IMG/VR virus record: IMGVR_UViG_3300020185_000004
Coordinates: 1-33,885 of that record
DNA: 33,885 nucleotides
From: a virus
Direction: 5' to 3' (one strand)
The notes beneath the pieces were generated by a model. It was not told where the DNA came from and did no database searches. It worked only from the letters and a program-made list of their open reading frames with translations. The position numbers were made by a program, and so were the translations under genes. Of this stretch, positions 13,801-33,885 are shown one piece after another (positions within the stretch are counted from its first letter, which is position 1; the number at the start of each line of letters is the position of its first letter).

Positions 13801-13836
13801 AACTTTTGATAACTTTGCATAAGTTTGATAAAGTTT
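13801..13836. promoter_or_regulatory. 10-bp-phased AACTTT repeat array (locus A)
   Basis: Four units in exact 10-bp register: AACTTTTGAT, AACTTTGCAT, AAGTTTGATA, AAGTTTACTC. The second pair is close to an inverted version of the first (AAACTT on the complement). One unit per helical turn is what a cooperatively bound operator or curved DNA would show. It lies in the 109-bp gap before the 70-residue gene. A second array of the same kind stands at 19238-19277. Confidence 0.65.
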
Positions 13837-14159: not shown

Positions 14160-14987
14160 ATGAACTATGATCGAATCCTTGACCTCGTATCGTCTGCGAT
14201 GAAAGACGAGACAACGTGGCGTAAGACATGGCAGTCACAATCTGGCTTACATCAAAACTGGATTAGCAAAAAGCCATACAACGGCACGAACCAGCTGATG
14301 ACTATGATCTCAGCTCACATCTCAGGCTACACAAAACCCTACTGGCTTACCTACAAGCAAGTTGTTGAGCTTGGGGGCACAGTCAAAGGGCAGAAAGCCA
14401 CGCCTGCAATCTTCTTTGGATCTGCTAAAGACAAGAACCACGAAGACAAAACCTACAAGTTTGCAAAGCTGTATAACATCTTCAACATCGAGCAGACTGG
14501 CATTGAGTTACCTGAGATAGAAACCAGAGTCACAAAGCTTGAGCGCCCTTACGAGATAGCCCAAGCATTGAATGTCGAAGTCGAATCTAATCCAGCCCAT
14601 GGCCCTAGCTATAGTCCGTCGCGTGACTTGATACGGATGCCAATGCCTGGGCAATTCGAGTCTGACGATGCACATCAATCTACCTTTTACCATGAATGCA
14701 TTCACTCCACTGGTCACAAGTCTAGGCTTGACCGTGATCTTGCCGGCTCATTTGGCAGTGAAGACTATGCAAAGGAAGAGCTAGTAGCAGAGCTTGGATC
14801 TATCTTCTTATGCGCACAGCTTGGTGTGACGTATGACATTGCTCAACACGCGAGCTACCTTTCCTCATGGGAGAAGGCAATCAAGTCAGATCCTAAATAC
14901 CTACTTAAAGCCGCGACGTCAGCAAGAAAGGCAAGCGAGTATTGCATGTCGCAGTTCACCATGATGCGGAAATATGAAGCCGCATAA
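14160..14987 (+). CDS. ArdC-like antirestriction protein (ssDNA-binding domain + metallopeptidase)
   Basis: 275 residues from ATG at 14160 with GGAG upstream; an in-frame extension of 74 codons overlaps the previous gene and lacks a ribosome site. N-terminal domain (about 1-115; NGTNQLMTM, YWLTYKQVVELGGTVKGQKA) is the ArdC_N ssDNA-binding type. C-terminal domain carries HECIH at 178-182 and E211 in KEELVAELGS, the zincin active site of the polyvalent MPTase family. Such proteins are carried by plasmids and phages and can protect incoming DNA from host restriction. All zinc ligands are intact. Its place near the beginning of the early block suits a protein needed at once after DNA entry. Confidence 0.85.
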   Translation: MNYDRILDLVSSAMKDETTWRKTWQSQSGLHQNWISKKPYNGTNQLMTMISAHISGYTKPYWLTYKQVVELGGTVKGQKATPAIFFGSAKDKNHEDKTYKFAKLYNIFNIEQTGIELPEIETRVTKLERPYEIAQALNVEVESNPAHGPSYSPSRDLIRMPMPGQFESDDAHQSTFYHECIHSTGHKSRLDRDLAGSFGSEDYAKEELVAELGSIFLCAQLGVTYDIAQHASYLSSWEKAIKSDPKYLLKAATSARKASEYCMSQFTMMRKYEAA

Positions 14988-16718: not shown

Positions 16719-17870
16719 GTGAGCTTACTTGATTACTGTATAACTGAACATCAACGCAAAGTTATTACTCTGCACGAAGAAGGGCTAGGCTATCAAAAGA
16801 TCGGCGAAAGGCTCGGCATTGGCAAATACTCTGCCAGAGACATTGTAAAAAATGTAAAGGGCAAGGCCGCATCAAGAGGTCACTCTCCGGATCACGATAT
16901 GACTCACACTGTCCCTGTAGGATTTAATGTTAGGGGCGTCTCCACTTATTACAACGATGAAGGTAAGCCAGTAGGCCAATGGGTCAAGTCGGCCAGCGAC
17001 AAAGAAGTTCAGTTCCAAATGATGATCGAGCGAATTGAGTTAGCGTGCGAAGGCATTAAACCTTGGAAGCCAGTCAAAAAACCAAAGGTCACAGAGGACG
17101 ATCTGCTGTCATTGTTAGTTATTACCGACTTTCACCTAGGCTCTTATTGCTGGGGTCAGGAGACTAGCGAGGACTATGACACTAACATGGCGCGGGATTT
17201 GTTCTTGTCTAGCGTTGCAGAAATGATCGACAGCACCCCAAAAAGCAAGATCGGAATGCTTTGCAATCTCGGTGATTTTCTTCATTGGGATGGCCTTGAG
17301 CAACTCACTCCGTCGGGCAAAAATCTTTTAGAAGGCGACTCAAGATACTCCCGCATCGTAGATATAGCTATGACAGTTATGGATGAGGCTGTCCGAATGA
17401 TGCTAAAGAAGTACGAGAAGGTGGTCTTTGTATGTGCTGAGGGCAATCACGACATTGCTGGCTCTATCTGGCTACGAAAGTTTATCCGCAAACTGTATGC
17501 AAACGAGCCAAGGCTTGAGGTCATCGACAACGACTTCCCTTATTACGCCTATCGACATGGAGAGACCATGCTTTGCTTTCATCACGGGCATAAGGCAAAG
17601 ATGGGAAGTTTGCCAAAGGTATTTGCTAGCGAGCCACGGTTCCGAGAAGACTGGGGCAAGTCTAAGATCGCTTATATCCATTCGGGTCATTACCACCATG
17701 AAAAAGTATTAGAAGACGCAGGGGCCATCACAGAACAGCACCCCACGCTTGCTTCCCGAGACTCATACGCCACTCGGCTGGGGCTTATGTCCCACAGAGG
17801 CGCAAAGGTAATCACGTATGACAACGAGGACGGCGAAGTAAGTCGCATCACAATAAGGCCAAGAGCCTAA
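16719..17870 (+). CDS. HTH-calcineurin-like metallophosphoesterase
   Basis: 383 residues, GTG start with AGGGGGAAG in front. Residues about 8-50 form an HTH (HEEGLGYQKIGERLGIGKYS, as in sigma-4/resolvase-type domains). The phosphoesterase core follows from 130 with all five metal motifs: D137-x-H139 (TDFHLG), G185-D186 (LGDFLHWD), N243-H244-D245 (EGNHD), H288-H289-G-H291 and H321-SG-H324. This is the calcineurin-like family, which includes Mre11/SbcD nucleases and cyclic-nucleotide phosphodiesterases. The DNA-binding head argues for a DNA-linked role. Similar fusions are common in marine podoviruses without proven substrate. It converges with the minus-strand gene, overlapping 4 bp. Confidence 0.82.
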   Translation: MSLLDYCITEHQRKVITLHEEGLGYQKIGERLGIGKYSARDIVKNVKGKAASRGHSPDHDMTHTVPVGFNVRGVSTYYNDEGKPVGQWVKSASDKEVQFQMMIERIELACEGIKPWKPVKKPKVTEDDLLSLLVITDFHLGSYCWGQETSEDYDTNMARDLFLSSVAEMIDSTPKSKIGMLCNLGDFLHWDGLEQLTPSGKNLLEGDSRYSRIVDIAMTVMDEAVRMMLKKYEKVVFVCAEGNHDIAGSIWLRKFIRKLYANEPRLEVIDNDFPYYAYRHGETMLCFHHGHKAKMGSLPKVFASEPRFREDWGKSKIAYIHSGHYHHEKVLEDAGAITEQHPTLASRDSYATRLGLMSHRGAKVITYDNEDGEVSRITIRPRA

Positions 17871-18055
17871 GTCGGCTGGACTTCTTCAGATAAAGCACCC
17901 TCGATGGCGGCCCTTGTAGTAAAGGGCTTGCCTTTGGCGTCAGTGAAATACTTAATCCCCTGAGCATCCAACACCTTGATTAACTTCGGTGAAGTATAGG
18001 CTTTAAAGATGTGGAACAAGTCACGGTAGTACAGGTATTCAGTTTGGTCGGTCAT
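17867..18055 (-). CDS. DUF4224-like small protein
   Basis: 62 residues. Core YTSPKLIKVLDAQGIKYFTD, then AKGKPFTTRAAIEGAL, resembles DUF4224 (a helix-turn-helix-like element ending in G-I-x-[FY]-x-x-x-x-x-G-[KR]-P), often found next to phage recombination genes and likely DNA-binding. Last gene of the minus-strand island. Its Shine-Dalgarno AGGAG directly follows the T-run of an intrinsic terminator, so expression needs readthrough. Confidence 0.6.
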   Translation of the reverse strand: MTDQTEYLYYRDLFHIFKAYTSPKLIKVLDAQGIKYFTDAKGKPFTTRAAIEGALSEEVQPT

Positions 18056-18065
18056 TCAGTTCTCC

Positions 18066-18091
18066 TAAAAAAGCCCCGCCCGAAAGCGGGG
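18066..18091 (-). terminator. Intrinsic terminator inside the minus-strand island
   Basis: On the minus strand CCCCGC pairs with GCGGGG over a 6-nt loop, followed by CTTTTTT. It lies 7 bp after the SSB-like gene and its T-run abuts the AGGAG of the next gene. Confidence 0.88.
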
Positions 18092-18098
18092 AAGTTCC

Positions 18099-18380
18099 TC
18101 ACCAAGGAATATCGTCATTCGGCACAGGCTTTTGAGCTGGCTGTCGAGCTGGCTGGTCAGTGCTAGGCTTCCACATGTTGCGCTCTGCATACCACTTGCC
18201 AGACCTACCCTCTTTAACTTCAATGTTTATCCATTCAATGCTGGGGTCAGCTTTCTTTTGAGCGCCAACCCAAGCGGCAAAGTCATCCAGCTTTAGCGAC
18301 AGCTTTAGCTTTACAAAATCAGGCGCGCCATCATCAGGTTGCTTGGCCATCATCCCGTCTACAAAAACTTTATCATCCAT
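18099..18380 (-). CDS. Single-stranded DNA-binding protein-like
   Basis: 93 residues. N-terminal VFVDGMMAKQ..GAPDFVKLKLSLKLDDFAAWV and WINIEVKEGRSGKWYAERNMWKP (about 5-72) form a reduced OB-like beta pattern seen in short phage SSBs. A Pro/Gln-rich linker follows, ending NDDIPW, an acidic hydrophobic tip like the DDDIPF of bacterial SSBs that recruits replication partners. It would coat ssDNA during replication and recombination. Neighbours upstream are an HTH protein and an annealing candidate, a fitting set. A terminator follows directly. Confidence 0.68.
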   Translation of the reverse strand: MDDKVFVDGMMAKQPDDGAPDFVKLKLSLKLDDFAAWVGAQKKADPSIEWINIEVKEGRSGKWYAERNMWKPSTDQPARQPAQKPVPNDDIPW

Positions 18381-18392
18381 TACTTACTCCTT

Positions 18393-18599
18393 TTAGTTTT
18401 CCTTTTGATTGCTAAGCAAGTGATACATTGCGTAACGCTTGCCATCTTTGGTTTTGATTTCCGTATGTATGCTGTAACCACTCATGCGAAGCTCATTGAT
18501 TCGCGCCGCTAAACGAAAACAACCGTAGTTATTTAGAGCATCTATAGCTGTTATTGGCTTGCTTTCTAGGTGGTCAAGAATTTGCATTGTGTGACTCAT
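18393..18599 (-). CDS. HTH_39-type helix-turn-helix protein
   Basis: 68 residues: MQILDHLESKPITAIDALNN, then CFRLAARINELRMSGYSIHTE and KDGKRYAMYHLL. This is the L-x-x-L-x-x-x-x-x-I-T-x-x-x-A-L...RLAxRIxELRxxGxxI pattern of the winged-HTH_39 family, small phage DNA-binding proteins and putative regulators. It overlaps the upstream gene by 4 nt (ATGA). As the one clear stand-alone HTH protein in the island it is a candidate binder of the AACTTT arrays; that link is speculation. Confidence 0.75.
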   Translation of the reverse strand: MSHTMQILDHLESKPITAIDALNNYGCFRLAARINELRMSGYSIHTEIKTKDGKRYAMYHLLSNQKEN

Positions 18600-19201
18600 G
18601 CATTTTCTCCCATTACTTTTCTTGCGGCGTTGAACTCATCGGATTTGAGTGCGGCACGTTCAGCCGTAGTAAATGCCCCACCCTTTGAAGGAGCCAGCCA
18701 TAAGGCCGCCTTGTCTTCATTTGAAATCTCAGCCCACGCCTCAGCCACAGCCTCCCACGACTTTAACTCGATGTGTTCTTTGATGAAGTAAATAGAAGCG
18801 GAGTTGTTTCTCCACGTTTCATTGTGTGCAATGAGCCTATTGATTTCTTCAGTAGCAGGCTGGCTGTTCTGCTGAGTAATTGCATTAGCCACCTCGTCGG
18901 CTGATGCTATCTCCGACCCGCCCATTCCAAAGAATGCTAAGGCCCTTCCTACTGCGCTAGTCTCTGCGTTCTCAAGGGCTGAAGTTCGATTGATCTTACT
19001 GGCCGACCTTACTTCTTCTGCATAGCCGGTAGAGATGATCTGACCTGCGGCGGCTATCGTTGCCTTGACAATAACCAAGGTATCGTTAGCTTCAACAAGC
19101 TCAGTTTGAATAGTAAAGTCAGAGTGTTTCTCTCTAAACTCCTGAACACGCAAGGCTACAGTCTTATATTCCTTGCCGTGAATCTTTACAGTGCCTGACA
19201 T
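18596..19201 (-). CDS. Putative ssDNA-annealing recombinase (Rad52/Sak-like)
   Basis: 201 residues. N-terminal half: VKIHGKEYKTVALRVQEFRE, a strand-rich stretch with TLVIVKATIAAAGQIISTGYAEE, then RTSALENAETSAVGRALAFFGMGG (about 72-95). The last motif is the conserved element in a phage family often annotated Rad52- or Erf-like annealing protein. The C-terminal half is helical (SWEAVAEAWAEIS) and may be accessory. It would pair single strands in replication-linked recombination. First gene of the minus-strand island, with AGGAGAGCG as ribosome site, facing the helicase gene across a 138-bp control region. Confidence 0.5.
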   Translation of the reverse strand: MSGTVKIHGKEYKTVALRVQEFREKHSDFTIQTELVEANDTLVIVKATIAAAGQIISTGYAEEVRSASKINRTSALENAETSAVGRALAFFGMGGSEIASADEVANAITQQNSQPATEEINRLIAHNETWRNNSASIYFIKEHIELKSWEAVAEAWAEISNEDKAALWLAPSKGGAFTTAERAALKSDEFNAARKVMGENA

Positions 19202-19237
19202 AACGCTCTCCTTTTTTGATTGAGCTGACAGTCTATA

Positions 19238-19277
19238 AAACTTTCACAAACTTTGCAAACCTTTTAATAAGTTTGTT
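19238..19277. promoter_or_regulatory. 10-bp-phased AACTTT repeat array (locus B) in the divergent promoter region
   Basis: AAACTTTCAC, AAACTTTGCA, AACCTTTTAA, TAAGTTTGTT in 10-bp register, closely like locus A at 13801-13836 (shared core AAACTTTGCA/TAACTTTGCA followed by AAGTTTG). Possible promoters overlap: TTGACA near 19274-19279 on plus, and on minus TTGCAA with TAGACT 17 bp on. A regulator bound here would control the recombination island and the helicase gene together. Confidence 0.65.
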
Positions 19278-19339
19278 GACACAACTGCCAAAGTCATTCA
19301 GAGTTAAGGGCTTTCACCACAACAAATAAGGGGACAAAA

Positions 19340-20506
19340 ATGCAAGACGACTGGGCAGACTACTGCGAGTCAGTAGGACAGAAACCCGCTTTTGTAATCA
19401 AAGAAGAACTCATCAACGAAGCCTTTCCGGGAAACCCGTATTACACAAAACAGAATGGATCGTCGTCACTCTCAAGGCTCATGGGCGTAGCAGTTAACAG
19501 CCGCATAGAAGAGCTTGAGGAGCGCCTGGCGCAAGAGCGAGACGTTATCCCCGGCATGATTACCACTGGAACCGTAACGCTCGTATACGCCCCGTCAGGA
19601 GCTGGGAAGACCGTATGGATTTTAGGCAATCTATTCCAGAGTATTCGGAATAACCTGATAAAAGGCTCTAACGTAATCTACTTTAACGAAGATGACGGAG
19701 CCAAAGGGGTGCTTCAGAAGGCCAAGATGGGCAACCGACATGGCATTACAATGGTCACTTTAGCTAACTCACCAGACCCATCGCTTCGTACGACAACCGA
19801 CGCCCTTCATCTGCTCAACGCGATCAGAGAAGAAGGCGAGGCTAACGGTAAGATTGTTATCTGCGACACCCTAAAGAAGTTTGCGCCAGTCCTGAACAAG
19901 GGCGACATGCGCGAAGTGCTTCACGTTTTTCGTGAGTTTGCGGCGGCAGGCGGCACCGTAATCCTGCTAGGTCACTGCAATAAGCACCGAAGCATGGACG
20001 GTCGCTTGATCTATGAAGGCGTGGGCGATCTAAAGGCTGACGTTGACAATATGTTTGGCCTTGACCCGCTTAACGACAAGTTTTCTTTTTACCAAGAGCT
20101 ATTAGTAATCAATGAAAAAGATCGTAGTCAAATTAGTTTTGAGGGTGGCTTTAAATACAAGCAGACCAGTGCGACAGTAGGCTACGAAGAGTCAGTAGAC
20201 TCCGTTCAGTTTATGAGTGGCGATGACATCAGCGAACTCAAAGACAAGCAGAAGTCTCAGATCAATATTGGCAAAGCAATAAGTCGATATGAAGATGAGT
20301 ATGTATTGTTGAGTAGTGTTATGACAGAAGGCAGGCTCTACGCTCAAACGGAATTGTTTGACCTGCTACGCGATGACGACATAAATCCAAACGGATGCAC
20401 CAAGAAAACACTGCGCAACTGCATTGATTTACTCAAGGGAAACAACTTAAAGCTAGAACGCAAAGGCACACACGGCAAGAAATACTATCGCTGGATGCCA
20501 ATGTAA
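19340..20506 (+). CDS. RepA/DnaB-type RecA-fold ATPase, putative replicative helicase
   Basis: 388 residues. Residues 1-70 form an N-terminal region, then the AAA_25/RepA-like core: Walker A APSGAGKT at 84-91, Walker B KIVICDT at 171-177 (D176), and GHCNKHRS at 211-218 in the sensor position. NEDDG near 116-120 is typical of hexameric RepA/RadA relatives. The C-terminal ~110 residues (TEGRLYAQTELFDLLRDDD; KTLRNCIDLLKGNNLKLERK) look like a winged-helix DNA-binding domain. With no polymerase in the genome, this is the main replication protein, likely loading or acting as helicase. Its stop codon lies within the first unit of the 20503-20647 repeat array. Alternative: a Sak4-like recombinase. 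Confidence 0.75.
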   Translation: MQDDWADYCESVGQKPAFVIKEELINEAFPGNPYYTKQNGSSSLSRLMGVAVNSRIEELEERLAQERDVIPGMITTGTVTLVYAPSGAGKTVWILGNLFQSIRNNLIKGSNVIYFNEDDGAKGVLQKAKMGNRHGITMVTLANSPDPSLRTTTDALHLLNAIREEGEANGKIVICDTLKKFAPVLNKGDMREVLHVFREFAAAGGTVILLGHCNKHRSMDGRLIYEGVGDLKADVDNMFGLDPLNDKFSFYQELLVINEKDRSQISFEGGFKYKQTSATVGYEESVDSVQFMSGDDISELKDKQKSQINIGKAISRYEDEYVLLSSVMTEGRLYAQTELFDLLRDDDINPNGCTKKTLRNCIDLLKGNNLKLERKGTHGKKYYRWMPM

Positions 20507-20647
20507 TGCCCAGAATGCCCAGAATGCCCACAATGCCTTCAATGCCCATGGTTTAGGGGGCCCCTTAGCAGAGCAAAATGACCAACCCGCCCCCTTTTTC
20601 TGGGGCATAAGGGGCAAACGGGGCAAACTGGGCAAACTGGGCAAACT
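20503..20647. repeat. Mirrored 9-bp iteron array with G5C cores, candidate origin/operator
   Basis: Left arm: five 9-bp units (GTAATGCCC, AGAATGCCC x2, ACAATGCCT, TCAATGCCC; 20503-20547), 8-bp spacer ATGGTTTA, core GGGGGCCCCTT (20556-20566). Right arm is the mirror: core AACCCGCCCCC (20584-20594), 8-bp spacer, then GGGCATAAG, GGGCAAACG and three GGGCAAACT (20603-20647). Arms are 64 bp each around a 17-bp centre. Opposed AGAATGCCC/GGGCAAACT units pair at 7 of 9 bases. It starts inside the helicase stop and ends 5 bp before the next gene's Shine-Dalgarno. A related half-site is at 12274-12319. Confidence 0.9.
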
Positions 20648-20661
20648 GAATAGGAGTACTT

Positions 20662-21084
20662 ATGGATTCATCACACCGCTGGCTTGTCGATACCAAAGAC
20701 AAGATGAACTTCTTTATCGCTTTCATCACCACACAGTTTGATGACGGCAAGAAAATCCTATATACAATCAAGGACACCACAAGGAGTGACAGACAAAACA
20801 ACGCTATGCACTTGTGGTTTAGACAGATAGCTGAGGAGCTGAATGACGCAGGGTACTGGGTAAGGCACCCCTTCAGCGACAAGCTAGAGATACCGTTCAC
20901 TGAGATACTAGTTAAGGAGACGCTCTACAAGCCCATTATAAAGGCCATGTACGACAAGAACTCCACAGGCAGGCTAACCCCGCAGGAGCTGTCTAACGCC
21001 GCTGAGGTGCTAGTCAGGTGGCTCTCAGAGAACAAGAAGGTATATGTACCGTTCCCTCAACAACTAAAGGATCAACTAAAGTGA
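20662..21084 (+). CDS. NinB-like recombination protein (putative)
   Basis: 140 residues. TRSDRQNNAMHLWFRQIAEE (about 39-58) matches the opening R-S-x-x-Q-N-x-x-x-H pattern of NinB/Orf-type and related phage proteins. The remainder is helical, with IPFTEILVKETLYKPIIKAM and a C-terminal VYVPFPQQLKD. Lambda NinB binds ssDNA in recombination; whether this belongs to the same family needs profile comparison. Follows the mirrored repeat with its own AGGAG, and precedes HTH and NinG-like genes, reminiscent of a lambda nin-type gene order. Confidence 0.5.
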   Translation: MDSSHRWLVDTKDKMNFFIAFITTQFDDGKKILYTIKDTTRSDRQNNAMHLWFRQIAEELNDAGYWVRHPFSDKLEIPFTEILVKETLYKPIIKAMYDKNSTGRLTPQELSNAAEVLVRWLSENKKVYVPFPQQLKDQLK

Positions 21085-21269
21085 ATAAAACCTCTCGGAG
21101 TACAGTCTACGATGGCGAAGTTACGTGGCAAAGAATTGCTGATGAAGTAGGATTATCACGGCAAGGCGCTAAGCACGTTTACAATACCGCCATCCTCAAG
21201 CTACAAAAAAATAAACAACTACAGCAGTATTGGGTTGATCTAATCATAGAAGGGAGAGCAACTAGGTGA
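21081..21269 (+). CDS. Sigma-70 region-4-like HTH protein, GTG start
   Basis: 62 residues from GTG at 21081, overlapping the upstream stop as GTGA and preceded by AAAGGA. The centre TWQRIADEVGLSRQGAKHVY followed by NTAILKLQ (about 15-42) is a typical sigma region 4 helix-turn-helix. Only this domain is present, no regions 2 or 3. Such mini-proteins can act as transcription activators touching the -35 element. As the only sigma-like protein in a phage without its own polymerase, it is a candidate late-gene activator; that is inference. Confidence 0.65.
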   Translation: MNKTSRSTVYDGEVTWQRIADEVGLSRQGAKHVYNTAILKLQKNKQLQQYWVDLIIEGRATR

Positions 21270-28366: not shown

Positions 28367-29014
28367 TTAAATAGTCCTAAAGTACATCTCTTCTGGGTGC
28401 TTGGCCGCATCAATCGCTATTGCGTCTGATAGATACTGGTTAGCAATTTGGAAGTATTCTGCTGTAGATGTTCCGCCTGTCTCTCCTCGCTCACGCGCAA
28501 GTAACGCTACCGCCAGATGAATAACGGGTTGAGCAGGAATAAGTAGTGAATCAGTGTTAGCTGATAAATCTACCTGCCGCTTAGTAACGTCAAAACGCAG
28601 GTTGTATACGCCATCAGGCGTAGGACCAACTAACACTTGCGTGTCGCCGCTAGAATCTAAACCGTTATAAGTGTAGTACTGAGGTGCACCTTCTGATGTG
28701 CTAGCTATATACAGTGCATTGTTAAACCAATCCTTAGACTGGTAGCTCATAAAGCAATTTTGAGTGTCATTTAAAACCGACATGACTTTTACGTTATCGC
28801 TACCACCCGTTAGCGAATAGGTATTGTCCGATGCAGTTGTAGAGATTGTGATTGTCTCTCGCAGTGCAGACCAGTCAGCCGCTTGACCAACTAATGTTTT
28901 TGCATCGTTAATAAAGTCGCCAACCATCTTAATGTAAGCAGTGCTTGTAACGGATGTAGTCTCTTCCTCTCGAAGACGACGCAATACGCTATTCATTAGG
29001 TTTAAATATGTCAT
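28367..29014 (-). CDS. Tail tubular protein A-like (adaptor)
   Basis: 215 residues. N-terminal helix TYLNLMNSVLRRLREEE, then FINDAKTLVGQAADWSALRE and a beta middle (TISTTASDNTYSLTGGSDNV), VGPTPDGVYNLRFDVTKR, ending in helices AVALLARERGE and YFQIANQYLSDAIAIDAAKH. This is the standard layout of the gp11/TTPA adaptor that joins portal to nozzle. Starts inside the stop of the collagen-like gene (ATGA), ends one base before the nozzle gene. Confidence 0.8.
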   Translation of the reverse strand: MTYLNLMNSVLRRLREEETTSVTSTAYIKMVGDFINDAKTLVGQAADWSALRETITISTTASDNTYSLTGGSDNVKVMSVLNDTQNCFMSYQSKDWFNNALYIASTSEGAPQYYTYNGLDSSGDTQVLVGPTPDGVYNLRFDVTKRQVDLSANTDSLLIPAQPVIHLAVALLARERGETGGTSTAEYFQIANQYLSDAIAIDAAKHPEEMYFRTI

Positions 29015-32000
29015 GCGTTTCTAGCGCCTCCAGTAAACATTCCTATTCGTAGTGGTTGAGCAAGCTTACGCCGTGTCAGTCCCTGACGGAATGGGTCAAA
29101 ATTAACAGGCTGTATCGGTGTGGCCGCGGCTATTTGACCTGGCATCATTGCTTGTTGTGCCGCAAGACCCATTAATCCAGCGCCAAGCCCTTGGCCTAAT
29201 CCGGCTATTCCTTCTCCAAGACCTCCAAGCCCCTCTCCAACTGTTTCGCCCAATCCTCCAAAACCCGTTTCTAATTGAGTTTTAATATTTTCGGATAGCC
29301 CTTGAATGTTTTCTCCAAGACTAGTATTAGCGCCTTCAATAGAAGTTACTACTGTCTTTATGTCGGTTCCCATGTTGGTTGCTAGACTGCTTAAGCCTTT
29401 AAGGACACTTGCTTCTAGCTCTGTAATATCCCCGCCAACACCAGTTCCTAGCTTAACAATAGCATTCTCGATATCTGTAGTTTGCACTCCTAAAGAGTCA
29501 GCAAGACTTTTAACCCCCTCATTTACCGCGGTTTTTACTCCGCCTACTGCTTGACCAACATCGCTAATGCCCTCTTCAAGACCAGTAATTCCTTCTCCAA
29601 GTCCCGTTCCAAGCGTTGTAACTGAATCAACTACAGACTTAATGTCTAAGCCTAGGCTAGTGGAAAGATCGCCCATTCCTTTAAGAATTTCTACTTCAAG
29701 ATCGGTAAGGTCTTTCCCCGTTGTAGTTCCAAGATTAGAGACGGCTTTAACCAAAGCCTCTGTTGATAAGCCAAGGCTTTCAGCAAGACCTTTAATTCCT
29801 GTTTGAACACCGGTAACTCCTGTACCAATGTCAGTAAGCTGTCCTCCTAAACCTTTAATGTCTTCAGAAATGCCTTCTTCAAGACCTGTAACAGACTTGA
29901 CCACATCTCCAATATCAACACCTAAATTTTCAGAAAGATCTCCCAGTCCTTTAAGAATGCCAGACTCTAATTCAGTAAGATCCTTTCCGGTTGTAGTCCC
30001 AAGTTCAGACACCGCTTTAACCAAAGCATCAGTTGAGAGTCCTAAGCTTTCGGCAAGATCTTTAATTCCTTTATCTACGCCGCCAATTCCTGTGCCAATA
30101 CCGGTAAGTTGCTCTCCTAAATCTTTAATACCATCTGCAACGCCTTCTTCAAGACCTGTGACGGACTCAACAACATCCCCAATATCTGTACCAAAGTCTT
30201 TTGAAAGATCGCCAAGCCCTTTAAGAATTTCAGACTGTAAGCTGGTAAGGTCTTTCCCAGTAGAATCGCCAAGATTAGATATTGCTTTAATTAAGCCATC
30301 CGTAGACAACCCTAGGCTTTCTGCTAAATCATCAATTCCGCCTTTAACTCCGGCAATATCCGTAGTTATGCCTTTAAAATCCCCGCTTAACTGAGTGGCA
30401 ACTTGCTCTGCGGTTAATCCTTCAGGAATTCCAGCAACAATGTTTTTTACATCTTTAACAGTTGCGGAAGGGGGAATAGTTATTGCGCCTGAAATTTGTT
30501 CTAGTTGATCTTCTGTAAATCCATAGTTAGACAAAATGTCGCGAACGTCACTGGGGCTTGCAACATCAAGGCCGCCTACAGCTTCTTTAATATCTTTTAC
30601 GGCAGAATCTAAATCCTCACCAACAACAATGCCTTCTAAAGCATTTGCTAAATCAAGCCTATTTATATTTTCAGGCAAAGCGCCAACAATCTGATTAATT
30701 TGGCTTTCAGTAAACGAAAATCCAGACAGTGCATCTTCTACATCTTTAGGGCTGGCAATAGCCACTTGCCCAATAGCGGTTTCAAATAAATTTTTAATTT
30801 GGCTTGTAGTAATTTCTTCAGGGAATTCAATTCCTTTAATAGCCTCGCCAACAATTTTAGTAATCTGATCCGACGTTACACCTAAAGGTATTCTTTCGAT
30901 TTCACCTTTAAGAATTTCTTCTATTTGCTTGGTCGTTATGCCTTCTGGAAATTTAATTCCCTCGACAGCGCTATCAATTATCCTGCGTATTTCTTCTGGA
31001 TCTGCGTCACGACCCGGCTCGCCTCTTGGTCCTTGCTCACCCCGTTCACCGTCTGCACCGTCTATTCCATCAGTACCATCAGTGCCGTCTACTCCATCTC
31101 TGCCGTCAGTACCATCAGTGCCGTCAATGCCATCTGTTCCGTCTTGACCCGGATCTCCTCTTTCTCCATCTAAACCATCTAAACCATCTAAACCATCAAT
31201 TCCGTCTATCCCATCTACGCCATCAACTCCATCCCGACCCGGGTCTCCGTCTATCCCATCTATCCCGTCTCTGCCAGGATCTCCAGCTTGGCCATCAACA
31301 CCATCGATACCATCGATACCATCTACGCCATCAATCCCGTCTATCCCATCTACGCCATCAATCCCGTCTATCCCATCTACGCCATCACGCCCATCAACAG
31401 GAGCAGGTGCAGGGGTAGGCGCAGGCTCTGGAAAGTACTCGGGGAACATGCCAGTTGTAATTGGGTTTTCTGTGTCTGTAGGCGCAGGAGTAGGCGGAGG
31501 AGTTGCTCCGGCTTGACCGTCATCTGACGGGGGCTGTTCTGTAGGAGTAGGAGGCTCTACAGGCTCTGGCTCAGGCGGTGGTTCTGGGACTACCTCTGGT
31601 TCAAACTCGTAATCTTCTGCCTCAAACTCCATACTTGATTCTAAAGGAGTATCTGGAGTTTCTTCAGGGGTTACTGCCGCAAGTCGAGCTTCTTCTGTTT
31701 CAAAAACTTCCCCTTGCTCTACCTCTTCCCATGTTTCTTCTAAGGCGTCGTAATAGTTATTACTTTGTGTATTTTCTAAAACTATGTCGGCCATCTGCCT
31801 TCCGGCTCCACCGGGAAGTGACCCACCATTTGCAAAGTGAGAGTCAAGCCAAGACATAGTATTGCCTTCTAAGTTAACTCTTCCGCTAGCATCAGCATTT
31901 ACTTCACCCTGATATTTAACAAGGTTTGTTCCGTCAGTTAAATAGTAGCCGTCACCTTCAACATCAACTAAATAATATTCGCCGTTTATTGACCCCGGCT

Positions 32001-33729
32001 CTAAACCTACGTGATAAGCAAGGTATGTGTCGTCAATGCTCATTGCGCCGTATTGATTTAATTGAGTTCCATCAGCAAGCATTTGTTCTGCGCGAGACCC
32101 AGTAACCCCGTCTTCTGGATAAATAATCTGACCTTCAGGACCAACAACCTCTGTTGTATCTGCTCTAAGATCTGCCGTTGTGTCTTCTAACTCAGATCCT
32201 GCCGCGTCTACTGTACTTTCTCCGGGAACACTAAAGTCTGGTGTTGGCTCTGGGGCGTACATTTCATTAAGGCTGTCAGAAATTCGTTGCAAAGAAGCCG
32301 TCATTGCTTCTGACTGTTGCGTTGCAAGAGCTTCGTTAACAGTGTTTTCCATGTTTCTTAGGACTTCTTCTTCAGCGTCTGCGCCAACTGATTGTCCTAA
32401 CCGTAATGCCTCTAACCGTTGCTCTTCTGTTACTGGCTGACCTGCTTTTATAGCGTCTTGAATTGGGCCCATTATAAAATTAGCAAGCTCTTGTGCGCCG
32501 GTCATTACACCAGACGCAACAATTTGATCCATGTCTAAACTACCGTCAAACACTCCCTGCCGTATCGCAGTCATGCCCATAGCGTTTAAAACATTGTCTA
32601 CTTCTTCTATGCCTGTTATGGCGGTAACGTCAAAGCCTAGCTGGTCGTTTAGATTTTTAAGAACTTCAGGCGACATAACTTGACTAAGAGCCTGTCCTAG
32701 CCCTGCTGTCGCGGCTGTTTGCAACAATTGATCTGGGTCAATACTGCCTGTAGTAACTGCCTGTGTAATTGCATTGCTTAAAGTTGCAGATCCAACGGTG
32801 CCTAAAGCTGGGGCTACTGCGGCTACAGCGGCTCCTGTACCTACCGTCAAAGCAGTAACCATTGCCATCTTAACGTAGTCAGTAAGACCAGCATGATCTT
32901 CGTTAACAGTCTTTACATAGGCAGAACCGTTCCACCGAAACTTGTCACCCGTCTCACTGTAAACAGTATCGCTAACGCCGTACTTTTTTAGCAGTGCCTG
33001 GTTAGCTTCTGAGTTAACCCAATTGTTATAGGCGGCAGATTGATTTTGTGTGCGCTCTCCAAACAACTCTTCATACGTAGATGACGCATCGTCACCGTAC
33101 TGAGTTAGATCCTCACCCTCAAGGATCATTAGATCGTCTTCAGACAAGCTACCTGTGTACTCGTCCCAGTTACCTACGTCGTAATCGCCAGCCTGAATTA
33201 ATTCTTCACGCTCAGTCATGTAAGCAAGGTAGTTATCAAAGTCGCCAAAGACTTCAGGCAGACGGTTTACAGTGTCGCCCTCAAAGTATGCTCGTAGCTC
33301 TGCTTCGGTTACTTGCTCTGCCTCTCGACTTCCGTACAAAGAAGTTGGACTAGCATCGCCACGCTCTGCGCCTTCAAAGAATGTAAAGGTCATTTCAGCG
33401 GGAGCTTCTGGCTCACCCTTAACGTCCTGCATAGGCTTAATACCGCCTGTCTCAGGCGCAGGGGCTGGAGCATCAGTACCAGTCTCTTCTGTTACACCAC
33501 CAACAGGACCGCCATTAGGATCAAAGCCGCCAGTTTCTCCAGCAGGTGCTTTAGTAGGATCAGTAGTAGGAGTGCCTGTGGGTAATGTCTCAGTAGGCGT
33601 AGTAGTTTTAGTAGTGGGCGCAGGCTTAGTCAGCATTCCTTCAGCCCTTTCAGGACTTACAGGTACGTACCCAATAGGAGTATGCTCAACAAGCTGTCCG
33701 TTTATTTCTAAAATATCACCGTACGCCAT
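29011..33729 (-). CDS. Giant collagen-like repeat virion protein, 1572 residues
   Basis: Largest gene. Start taken as ATG 33729 (GGAAG upstream); a TTG extension lies inside the holin gene. Order: N-terminal MAYGDILEINGQLVEHTPIG; Thr/Pro-rich linker (~40-105); acidic region; hydrophobic Gly/Ala segment (~283-303); Pro-rich stretch (~700-765); 43 uninterrupted Gly-x-y triplets (~778-907), mostly GID, GVD and GTD; weak helical repeats (~908-1120); then at least four ~90-residue repeats (DLAESLGLSTDALVKAV...GKDLTELE..ILKGLGDLS); Gly-rich C-terminus ending QPLRIGMFTGGARNA. Probably a long trimeric fibre or whisker, or a tail/neck component; location next to tail genes supports a virion role. Confidence 0.75.
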   Translation of the reverse strand: MAYGDILEINGQLVEHTPIGYVPVSPERAEGMLTKPAPTTKTTTPTETLPTGTPTTDPTKAPAGETGGFDPNGGPVGGVTEETGTDAPAPAPETGGIKPMQDVKGEPEAPAEMTFTFFEGAERGDASPTSLYGSREAEQVTEAELRAYFEGDTVNRLPEVFGDFDNYLAYMTEREELIQAGDYDVGNWDEYTGSLSEDDLMILEGEDLTQYGDDASSTYEELFGERTQNQSAAYNNWVNSEANQALLKKYGVSDTVYSETGDKFRWNGSAYVKTVNEDHAGLTDYVKMAMVTALTVGTGAAVAAVAPALGTVGSATLSNAITQAVTTGSIDPDQLLQTAATAGLGQALSQVMSPEVLKNLNDQLGFDVTAITGIEEVDNVLNAMGMTAIRQGVFDGSLDMDQIVASGVMTGAQELANFIMGPIQDAIKAGQPVTEEQRLEALRLGQSVGADAEEEVLRNMENTVNEALATQQSEAMTASLQRISDSLNEMYAPEPTPDFSVPGESTVDAAGSELEDTTADLRADTTEVVGPEGQIIYPEDGVTGSRAEQMLADGTQLNQYGAMSIDDTYLAYHVGLEPGSINGEYYLVDVEGDGYYLTDGTNLVKYQGEVNADASGRVNLEGNTMSWLDSHFANGGSLPGGAGRQMADIVLENTQSNNYYDALEETWEEVEQGEVFETEEARLAAVTPEETPDTPLESSMEFEAEDYEFEPEVVPEPPPEPEPVEPPTPTEQPPSDDGQAGATPPPTPAPTDTENPITTGMFPEYFPEPAPTPAPAPVDGRDGVDGIDGIDGVDGIDGIDGVDGIDGIDGVDGQAGDPGRDGIDGIDGDPGRDGVDGVDGIDGIDGLDGLDGLDGERGDPGQDGTDGIDGTDGTDGRDGVDGTDGTDGIDGADGERGEQGPRGEPGRDADPEEIRRIIDSAVEGIKFPEGITTKQIEEILKGEIERIPLGVTSDQITKIVGEAIKGIEFPEEITTSQIKNLFETAIGQVAIASPKDVEDALSGFSFTESQINQIVGALPENINRLDLANALEGIVVGEDLDSAVKDIKEAVGGLDVASPSDVRDILSNYGFTEDQLEQISGAITIPPSATVKDVKNIVAGIPEGLTAEQVATQLSGDFKGITTDIAGVKGGIDDLAESLGLSTDGLIKAISNLGDSTGKDLTSLQSEILKGLGDLSKDFGTDIGDVVESVTGLEEGVADGIKDLGEQLTGIGTGIGGVDKGIKDLAESLGLSTDALVKAVSELGTTTGKDLTELESGILKGLGDLSENLGVDIGDVVKSVTGLEEGISEDIKGLGGQLTDIGTGVTGVQTGIKGLAESLGLSTEALVKAVSNLGTTTGKDLTDLEVEILKGMGDLSTSLGLDIKSVVDSVTTLGTGLGEGITGLEEGISDVGQAVGGVKTAVNEGVKSLADSLGVQTTDIENAIVKLGTGVGGDITELEASVLKGLSSLATNMGTDIKTVVTSIEGANTSLGENIQGLSENIKTQLETGFGGLGETVGEGLGGLGEGIAGLGQGLGAGLMGLAAQQAMMPGQIAAATPIQPVNFDPFRQGLTRRKLAQPLRIGMFTGGARNA
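29300..30360 (-). repeat. 270-bp repeats encoding ~90-residue helical modules
   Basis: Within the collagen-like gene, the region encoding (A)ESLGLSTDxLVKAV recurs at an exact 270-bp spacing (anchors 29771, 30041, 30311) and once more after 282 bp (29489). The copies are diverged in sequence but similar throughout, so old duplications kept by selection. Confidence 0.85.
31321..31387 (-). repeat. 27-bp exact tandem repeat in collagen-coding DNA
   Basis: A 27-bp unit (three Gly-x-y triplets on the minus strand) occurs twice perfectly, 31321-31347 and 31348-31374, with 13 further matching bases. A likely place for slippage in steps of nine residues without frame loss. Confidence 0.85.
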
Positions 33730-33730
33730 A

Positions 33731-33885
33731 TTACTTCTTCCAGTTAGCCAGGCCGCGAAGGCCAAACGATGCCGCTACAGCCGCACCCAAGAAACCTTTG
33801 TACCACTCAGGCATAGCGTTGAGTGCTTCAAAGCCCGACATTACTACAGGAACCATGCTAGGAAAGAACGCAAGAATACATGGGA
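33731..33885 (-). CDS. Holin-like membrane protein, C-terminal part (same gene as 1-317)
   Basis: C-terminal codons of the gene described at 1-317. The 317 nt from the left end plus 28 unique nt here make 345 nt, exactly 115 codons including the TAA stop at 33731-33733. This in-frame join independently confirms circularity. The encoded end is the second hydrophobic segment and the basic tail. A purine-rich stretch (GGAAGAAG) just before the TAA also serves as Shine-Dalgarno for the collagen-like gene, in the arrangement TAA-T-ATG. Confidence 0.7.
   Translation of the reverse strand, partial: PCILAFFPSMVPVVMSGFEALNAMPEWYKGFLGAAVAASFGLRGLANWKK
33759..33885. repeat. Right copy of 127-bp end overlap
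   Basis: Identical to positions 1-127. Removing one copy gives a unit genome of 33,758 bp. Confidence 0.95.

Follow-up and report, generated by a model that had tools for sequence, protein, structure and literature searches.

The control region between two divergent operons of an uncultured marine virus contains a run of tandem 10-bp repeats, which raises the question of what these repeats do and which protein, if any, reads them. The DNA analysed, hereafter called the window, is the whole 33,885-base viral record IMGVR_UViG_3300020185_000004, which carries minus-strand structural genes at both ends and early genes in the middle. The array in question (site 2) occupies the gap between gene 18596-19201 (minus strand, recombination operon) and gene 19340-20506 (plus strand, helicase operon). 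A first-pass annotation had described it as four 10-bp units and had assigned it a sister array at 13801 (site 1), 5.4 kb away, with a common period and core and a change of polarity. The four units match that description to the letter, and the sister array is present at a spacing of 5,437 bp (Table 1). The two arrays are very probably operators.

Table 1 Features of the window at and around the two arrays
Feature	Position	Strand	Description	Basis
Site-1 array	13801..13836		Four units, AACTTTTGAT-AACTTTGCAT-AAGTTTGATA-AAGTTT	Sequence, chance test, array-like promoters 5' of the ArdC-like gene in relatives
Early promoter inside site-1 array	13806..13834	+	TTGATA-N17-TAAAGT, TG before -10	Consensus scan; kept in relatives
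ArdC-like anti-restriction protein	14160..14987	+	ArdcN + MPTase-PolyVal; operon downstream of site 1 in relatives	
gp17867	17867..18055	-	62 aa, DUF4224, excisionase-like winged helix; last gene of site-2 minus-strand operon; proposed array reader	
Intrinsic terminator	18074..18091	-	Immediately before gp17867 ribosome-binding site	
gp18099	18099..18380	-	93 aa, conserved protein of minus-strand operon	
gp18596	18596..19201	-	201 aa, first gene of minus-strand operon; phrog_11717, function unknown	
Candidate recombination-operon promoter	19230..19258	-	TTGCAA-N17-TAGACT, under site-2 array	Sequence
Site-2 array	19238..19277		Four 10-bp units, AAACTTTCAC AAACTTTGCA AACCTTTTAA TAAGTTTGTT	Sequence, chance test, lag-10 scan, periodicity in relatives
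Helicase-operon promoter	19276..19304	+	TTGACA-N17-CAGAGT; -35 starts within last site-2 array unit	Sequence
AAA_25 ATPase, probable replicative helicase	19340..20506	+	C-terminal winged-helix-like stretch (by eye)	

The exact motif AACTTTN4AACTTT has just two occurrences in the record, at 13801 and 19239; the opposite strand has none, and a reversed-motif control gave none either. Scored as four AASTTT units at 10-bp steps, the arrays reach 24/24 (13801) and 23/24 (19239), values not attained when the entire window was shuffled 200 times with dinucleotides preserved, the best score being 21 and the mean best 17.1. A scan of the window for 10-bp self-similarity that ignores the letters themselves also ranks the two arrays first and second (22/30 and 18/30), the next stretch scoring 16/30. 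The change of polarity fared less well: a C-to-G change in each unit does exist, but it is weak evidence, because AAACTTT and its reverse complement AAAGTTT differ at the central base only, that is, by a single base per unit.

Tandem repeats of 9 bp are found elsewhere in the window. At 20505-20650, directly 3' of the helicase gene, ATGCCCAGA units are followed by GGGCAAACT units, and since the two sets have opposite strand sense they could pair into a long hairpin; 9-bp repeats after the helicase gene were seen by eye in the relative L059 too. A further set lies at 31047-31360 within the large minus-strand gene 29011-33765.

Relatives were collected by protein scans of viral contigs, which gave about 200 loci, several being copies of one contig. 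From 190 loci with a helicase match, 76 site-2 regions were picked with a promoter regular expression; 28 loci had no match to the expression, some of them short of upstream sequence. The gene order around site 2 is kept in the relatives. A gene resembling DNA cytosine methyltransferases by eye follows the helicase gene in L122 (7878-8861) and seven other loci, and at the NinG-type nuclease gene close relatives have swapped one allele for another of about 40% identity (L076 4057-4440, L077 6750-7133). Between the NinB and NinG genes of the window lies an 83-aa open frame (21018-21269), sigma-70 region 4-like (helix-turn-helix) by eye, which is a possible late regulator.

Each array stands at a promoter, and transcription starts can be assigned at three points, in agreement with the earlier proposal that the arrays mark the places where early transcription is likely to begin. 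A TTGAC-N17 plus-strand promoter at site 2 was found with a loose pattern in 170/170 loci having enough upstream sequence and with a strict one in 153/170, a count that includes repeat copies of one contig and corresponds to 83 distinct contexts, 71 of them strict. The minus-strand promoter is a candidate: the best match in the window was a one-base-shifted form, TTTGCA-N18-TAGACT, with a weak score (8/12, shuffle fraction 0.32), while a minus-strand promoter overlapping the site-2 array had a shuffle fraction of 0.04 or less in 7 of 17 representative relatives. Coordination of the three transcription units by one regulator, as the first-pass annotation had suggested, is plausible, but the letters of site 1 and site 2 did not match significantly by lineage (p = 0.11 over 11 lineages).

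The letters upstream of the helicase promoter vary by lineage (AAACTTTNNN, GTAAACATCT, CAACCTTTGCAAACATT, CAAGTTAACG, ACATTTGATT and others), and the ten-base period is conserved. In 17 site-2 representatives less than 70% identical to each other, identity at lag 10 was 0.437, compared with 0.275 (sd 0.014) after shuffling (z = 11.8), with a second peak at lag 20 (z = 6.1) and no lag-10 peak in the downstream control. Ranked against all blocks, the site-2 block was in the top 1% for lag 10 in 58/72 loci and in the top 5% in 67/72; the top 1% held it in one locus for lag 8, none for lag 9, six for lag 11 and none for lag 12, and the top 5% in 15 loci for lag 9 and 14 for lag 11. At site 1 the lag-10 self-match gave z = 11.0 (12 representatives of 22 sites). 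Seventeen of these sites lie upstream of the ArdC-like gene and five, in other lineages, were picked by eye upstream of the 15223 orthologue, for which reason the set favours array-like stretches. L059 (truncated) was left out, as were L064, L067, L069 and L070, which have the ArdC-like gene and in whose upstream 190 bp no site-1-like array was seen by eye. Wherever a locus has both sites, its best lag-10 stretch is one of the two (16/16).

The period is missing at site 2 in three array types, namely the L082/L118/L120 group, L125/L136 and L127 (3/17 representatives), the L127 exception coming from the 17-representative lag test; gp17867 is present all the same in L082, L118, L125 and L127. 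Apart from these 3/17 site-2 representatives, the sites consist of direct repeats one helical turn apart, as excisionase-type operators do.

The phase of the period relative to the -35 is similar across lineages, with R between 0.67 and 0.78 at site 2 (n = 17), where periods 9 and 11 are about equally concentrated in short windows and kinship was left in, and R of 0.97 at site 1 (n = 10 of the 17 ArdC-anchored sites), a result weakened because the -35 there belongs to the array. Common ancestry alone can preserve both phase and period in related sequences, which weakens the evidence from either. A persistent period and phase with drifting letters would also be expected if phased A/T tracts, without a specific reader, bent the promoter DNA or acted as upstream elements for RNA polymerase, and A-rich stretches do adjoin the -35. 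However, C and G positions repeat within the arrays as well (ACATTTGATT units, AACATTTGCA units), for which bending alone has no need, and the site-1 arrays cover the promoter from -35 to -10, making this explanation improbable.

Operators with a protein reader are the preferred reading, and comparisons between close relatives bear on which protein that might be. L075 and L076 are 96% identical over 3.9 kb; their helicases, gp18596 and the reverse-strand frame of gp18099 are 100% identical and their primases 97%, yet their arrays differ, with a length difference of exactly 20 bp, or two units. Similarly, L125 and L126 share 94% DNA identity and the DNA-binding part of gp17867 and have different arrays, whereas L075 and L116 have similar arrays with gp17867 only 52% identical. 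The first two pairs indicate that arrays are replaced as short cassettes, of whole units in L075/L076, and that none of the linked proteins compared sets the array letters. Helicase, primase, gp18596 and gp18099 are thus ruled out as the source of letter specificity by L075 and L076, and gp17867 is rejected as a letter-specific reader, since arrays and protein vary independently; it is retained as a reader of low specificity. Over 64 loci, array distance correlated equally with gp17867 distance and with helicase distance (Spearman 0.433 each; partial correlations 0.170 and 0.175, respectively), which gives no specific support to gp17867. Among the genes of the partial loci examined, none was found to track array type. 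A small winged-helix protein of the HTH_39 type is encoded at 18393-18599 (gp18393) in the window; the near relative L029 has the same array and no room for this gene between its neighbours, which rules gp18393 out as the reader.

The same comparison bears on the idea that the site-2 array is part of an origin of replication, its units serving as iterons next to the operon for primase and helicase. An origin would agree with tandem repeats that adjoin replication genes and an A-rich stretch, but with initiator specificity the letters should follow the initiator, and in L075 and L076 neither the helicase nor the primase sets them; moreover, a like array is found at the promoter of the ArdC operon, away from replication genes. 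Iterons are accordingly considered improbable.

Exchange of arrays between close relatives while the linked phage genes stay unchanged is what would be expected if the reader were encoded elsewhere, for example by the host. OmpR/PhoB-type regulators such as CpxR bind tandem half-sites about one turn apart, and the present arrays resemble their boxes in having such half-sites near the -35, although those regulators belong to host two-component systems. In one lineage the array reads GTAAA-N5-GTAAA, which we take to resemble a CpxR box. Under this explanation the phage would time its early genes by a host signal. It is nevertheless thought unlikely, as there is no single consensus across lineages and as it would leave to coincidence that the flanking operon carries an excisionase-like gene.

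A phage-encoded reader remains the preferred reading, and gp17867 has about an even chance of being that protein. The gene was found in 64/64 loci reaching far enough to the left, of the 76; the remaining 12 break off no more than 1.1 kb from site 2. In a 40-member alignment of the family, matches (E of 0.1 or less) were obtained to phrog_8896 in 35/40 members, phrog_1266 in 29/40 and phrog_4764 in 28/40, all named excisionase, with best E-values of 5e-5, 2e-6 and 1e-4 for the three families and 1.1e-4 for gp17867 of the window, and DUF4224 matched 34/40 members; the protein thus resembles excisionase families in sequence. The predicted model (pLDDT 79) has the order strand-helix-helix-wing-helix, and its top structure matches were BldC on DNA (Z 5.6 and 5.4). 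The better of these aligned 56 residues with an rmsd of 3.2, and a Z under 8 may reflect no more than a common arrangement. The best Foldseek match was weak (E 0.34), and a profile search in solved structures gave nothing below E 0.2.

In 20 records of this phage family, which may be fragments, neither a tyrosine integrase (PF00589, 0/20; controls 14/14) nor a resolvase (PF00239, 0/20; controls 10/14) was found, and HTH_3 was over the cut-off in 0/20, with one weak partial match. Since the partner integrase was not found in these records, gp17867 is called excisionase-like rather than an excisionase. DUF4224 was present in 10/229 bacterial genomes searched. Of eight strong bacterial loci, seven have a neighbouring gene that looks by eye like an integrase, and of seven neighbours tested five scored as tyrosine integrases (PF00589 over the cut-off); around the DUF4224 genes of the eight loci, no 10- or 11-bp arrays stood out in flanks of about 1.5 kb. 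No phage isolate matched gp17867 or the helicase, and the sole helicase match in the genome collection was a 3-kb contig in a Gammaproteobacteria MAG. Along with a helicase relative, this contig (L212) carries DUF4224 and an array of the CAAGTTGACA type; it is probably a fragment of a virus of this kind that ended up in the MAG bin. The open-licence literature searched yielded no account of DUF4224 as a regulator and nothing relevant on 10-bp tandem operators at early promoters.

The kind of operator proposed is already known. According to one account (PMC7498355), excisionases recognise direct repeats at 10-11 bp spacing and repress early phage promoters: a single site is bound weakly, several sites are bound cooperatively, and specific DNA is little preferred over non-specific DNA; Apl of phage 186 binds seven such sites and represses two early promoters. 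Apl and Cox of P2-like phages resemble the present case in being small helix-turn-helix proteins with direct repeats 10-11 bp apart at early promoters (PMC7498355). Low specificity and strong cooperativity are reported there for Apl, whereas binding by gp17867 is proposed. The Apl and Cox phages also differ in being temperate, with an integrase and att site, whereas no tyrosine integrase or resolvase was found in the 20 records, and in having promoters that face each other, whereas those at site 2 diverge. BldC of Streptomyces, the best structure match of the gp17867 model, binds two or four direct repeats head to tail at promoters (PMC5859096). It is a cellular developmental regulator with about 12% sequence identity to gp17867, and its repeats in the solved whiI complex are 9 bp, in contrast to 10 bp here. 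RdfS of ICEMlSym(R7A), a further parallel, is described in PMC11963761 as an oligomeric winged-helix excisionase that also regulates transcription and for which no consensus motif was found; it differs in working with an integrase in a conjugative element.

The explanation favoured as a whole, which is as likely to be right as wrong, is that of tandem one-turn operators with an excisionase/BldC-type reader, most likely gp17867. The two arrays would offer one half-site per DNA turn, over or beside three promoters: at site 1 that of the ArdC-like early operon, on the plus strand, and at site 2 those of the recombination operon on the minus strand and of the helicase operon on the plus strand. 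Molecules of a small winged-helix protein would line up along the arrays head to tail, binding cooperatively in a short chain. Repression is proposed at site 1 and at the site-2 minus-strand promoter because there the array overlaps the -35 to -10 region, where the bound chain would block RNA polymerase; at the site-2 plus-strand promoter, where the array abuts the -35, the chain would touch or limit the polymerase, and activity of the helicase promoter could go up or down. With gp17867 at the end of the minus-strand operon of site 2, the proposed reader would control its own expression. Arrays, period, positions, conservation and gene linkage are observations; that a protein binds, which protein it is and in which direction it regulates are inferred. 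The terminator before gp17867, found in 20/22 loci (19 detected automatically plus the window) with its T-run leading straight into the ribosome-binding site, may keep the level of gp17867 low. From a cooperative reader of low specificity, strict spacing, drifting letters, length changes by whole units and a phase fixed to the promoter would all be expected, and low specificity would be the reason that the spacing outlasts the letters.

What is new is the use of such operators by phages whose records yielded no integrase, and the conservation of their spacing rather than of their letters. The L075/L076 and L125/L126 pairs are natural array swaps on nearly the same background. If the explanation is true, DUF4224 would gain a function, there would be a reason for these phages to keep an excisionase-like gene although no integrase was found in them, and the arrays would exemplify an operator code that conserves spacing more than letters and that sequence motif searches would miss. 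It may tentatively be suggested that in an integrase-less marine phage family an excisionase-type protein has come to act solely as a regulator of transcription. Its operators would be written mainly in their spacing, as ladders of one-turn steps in fixed phase with the promoter, the letters drifting or being swapped as whole-unit cassettes without a change in the protein.
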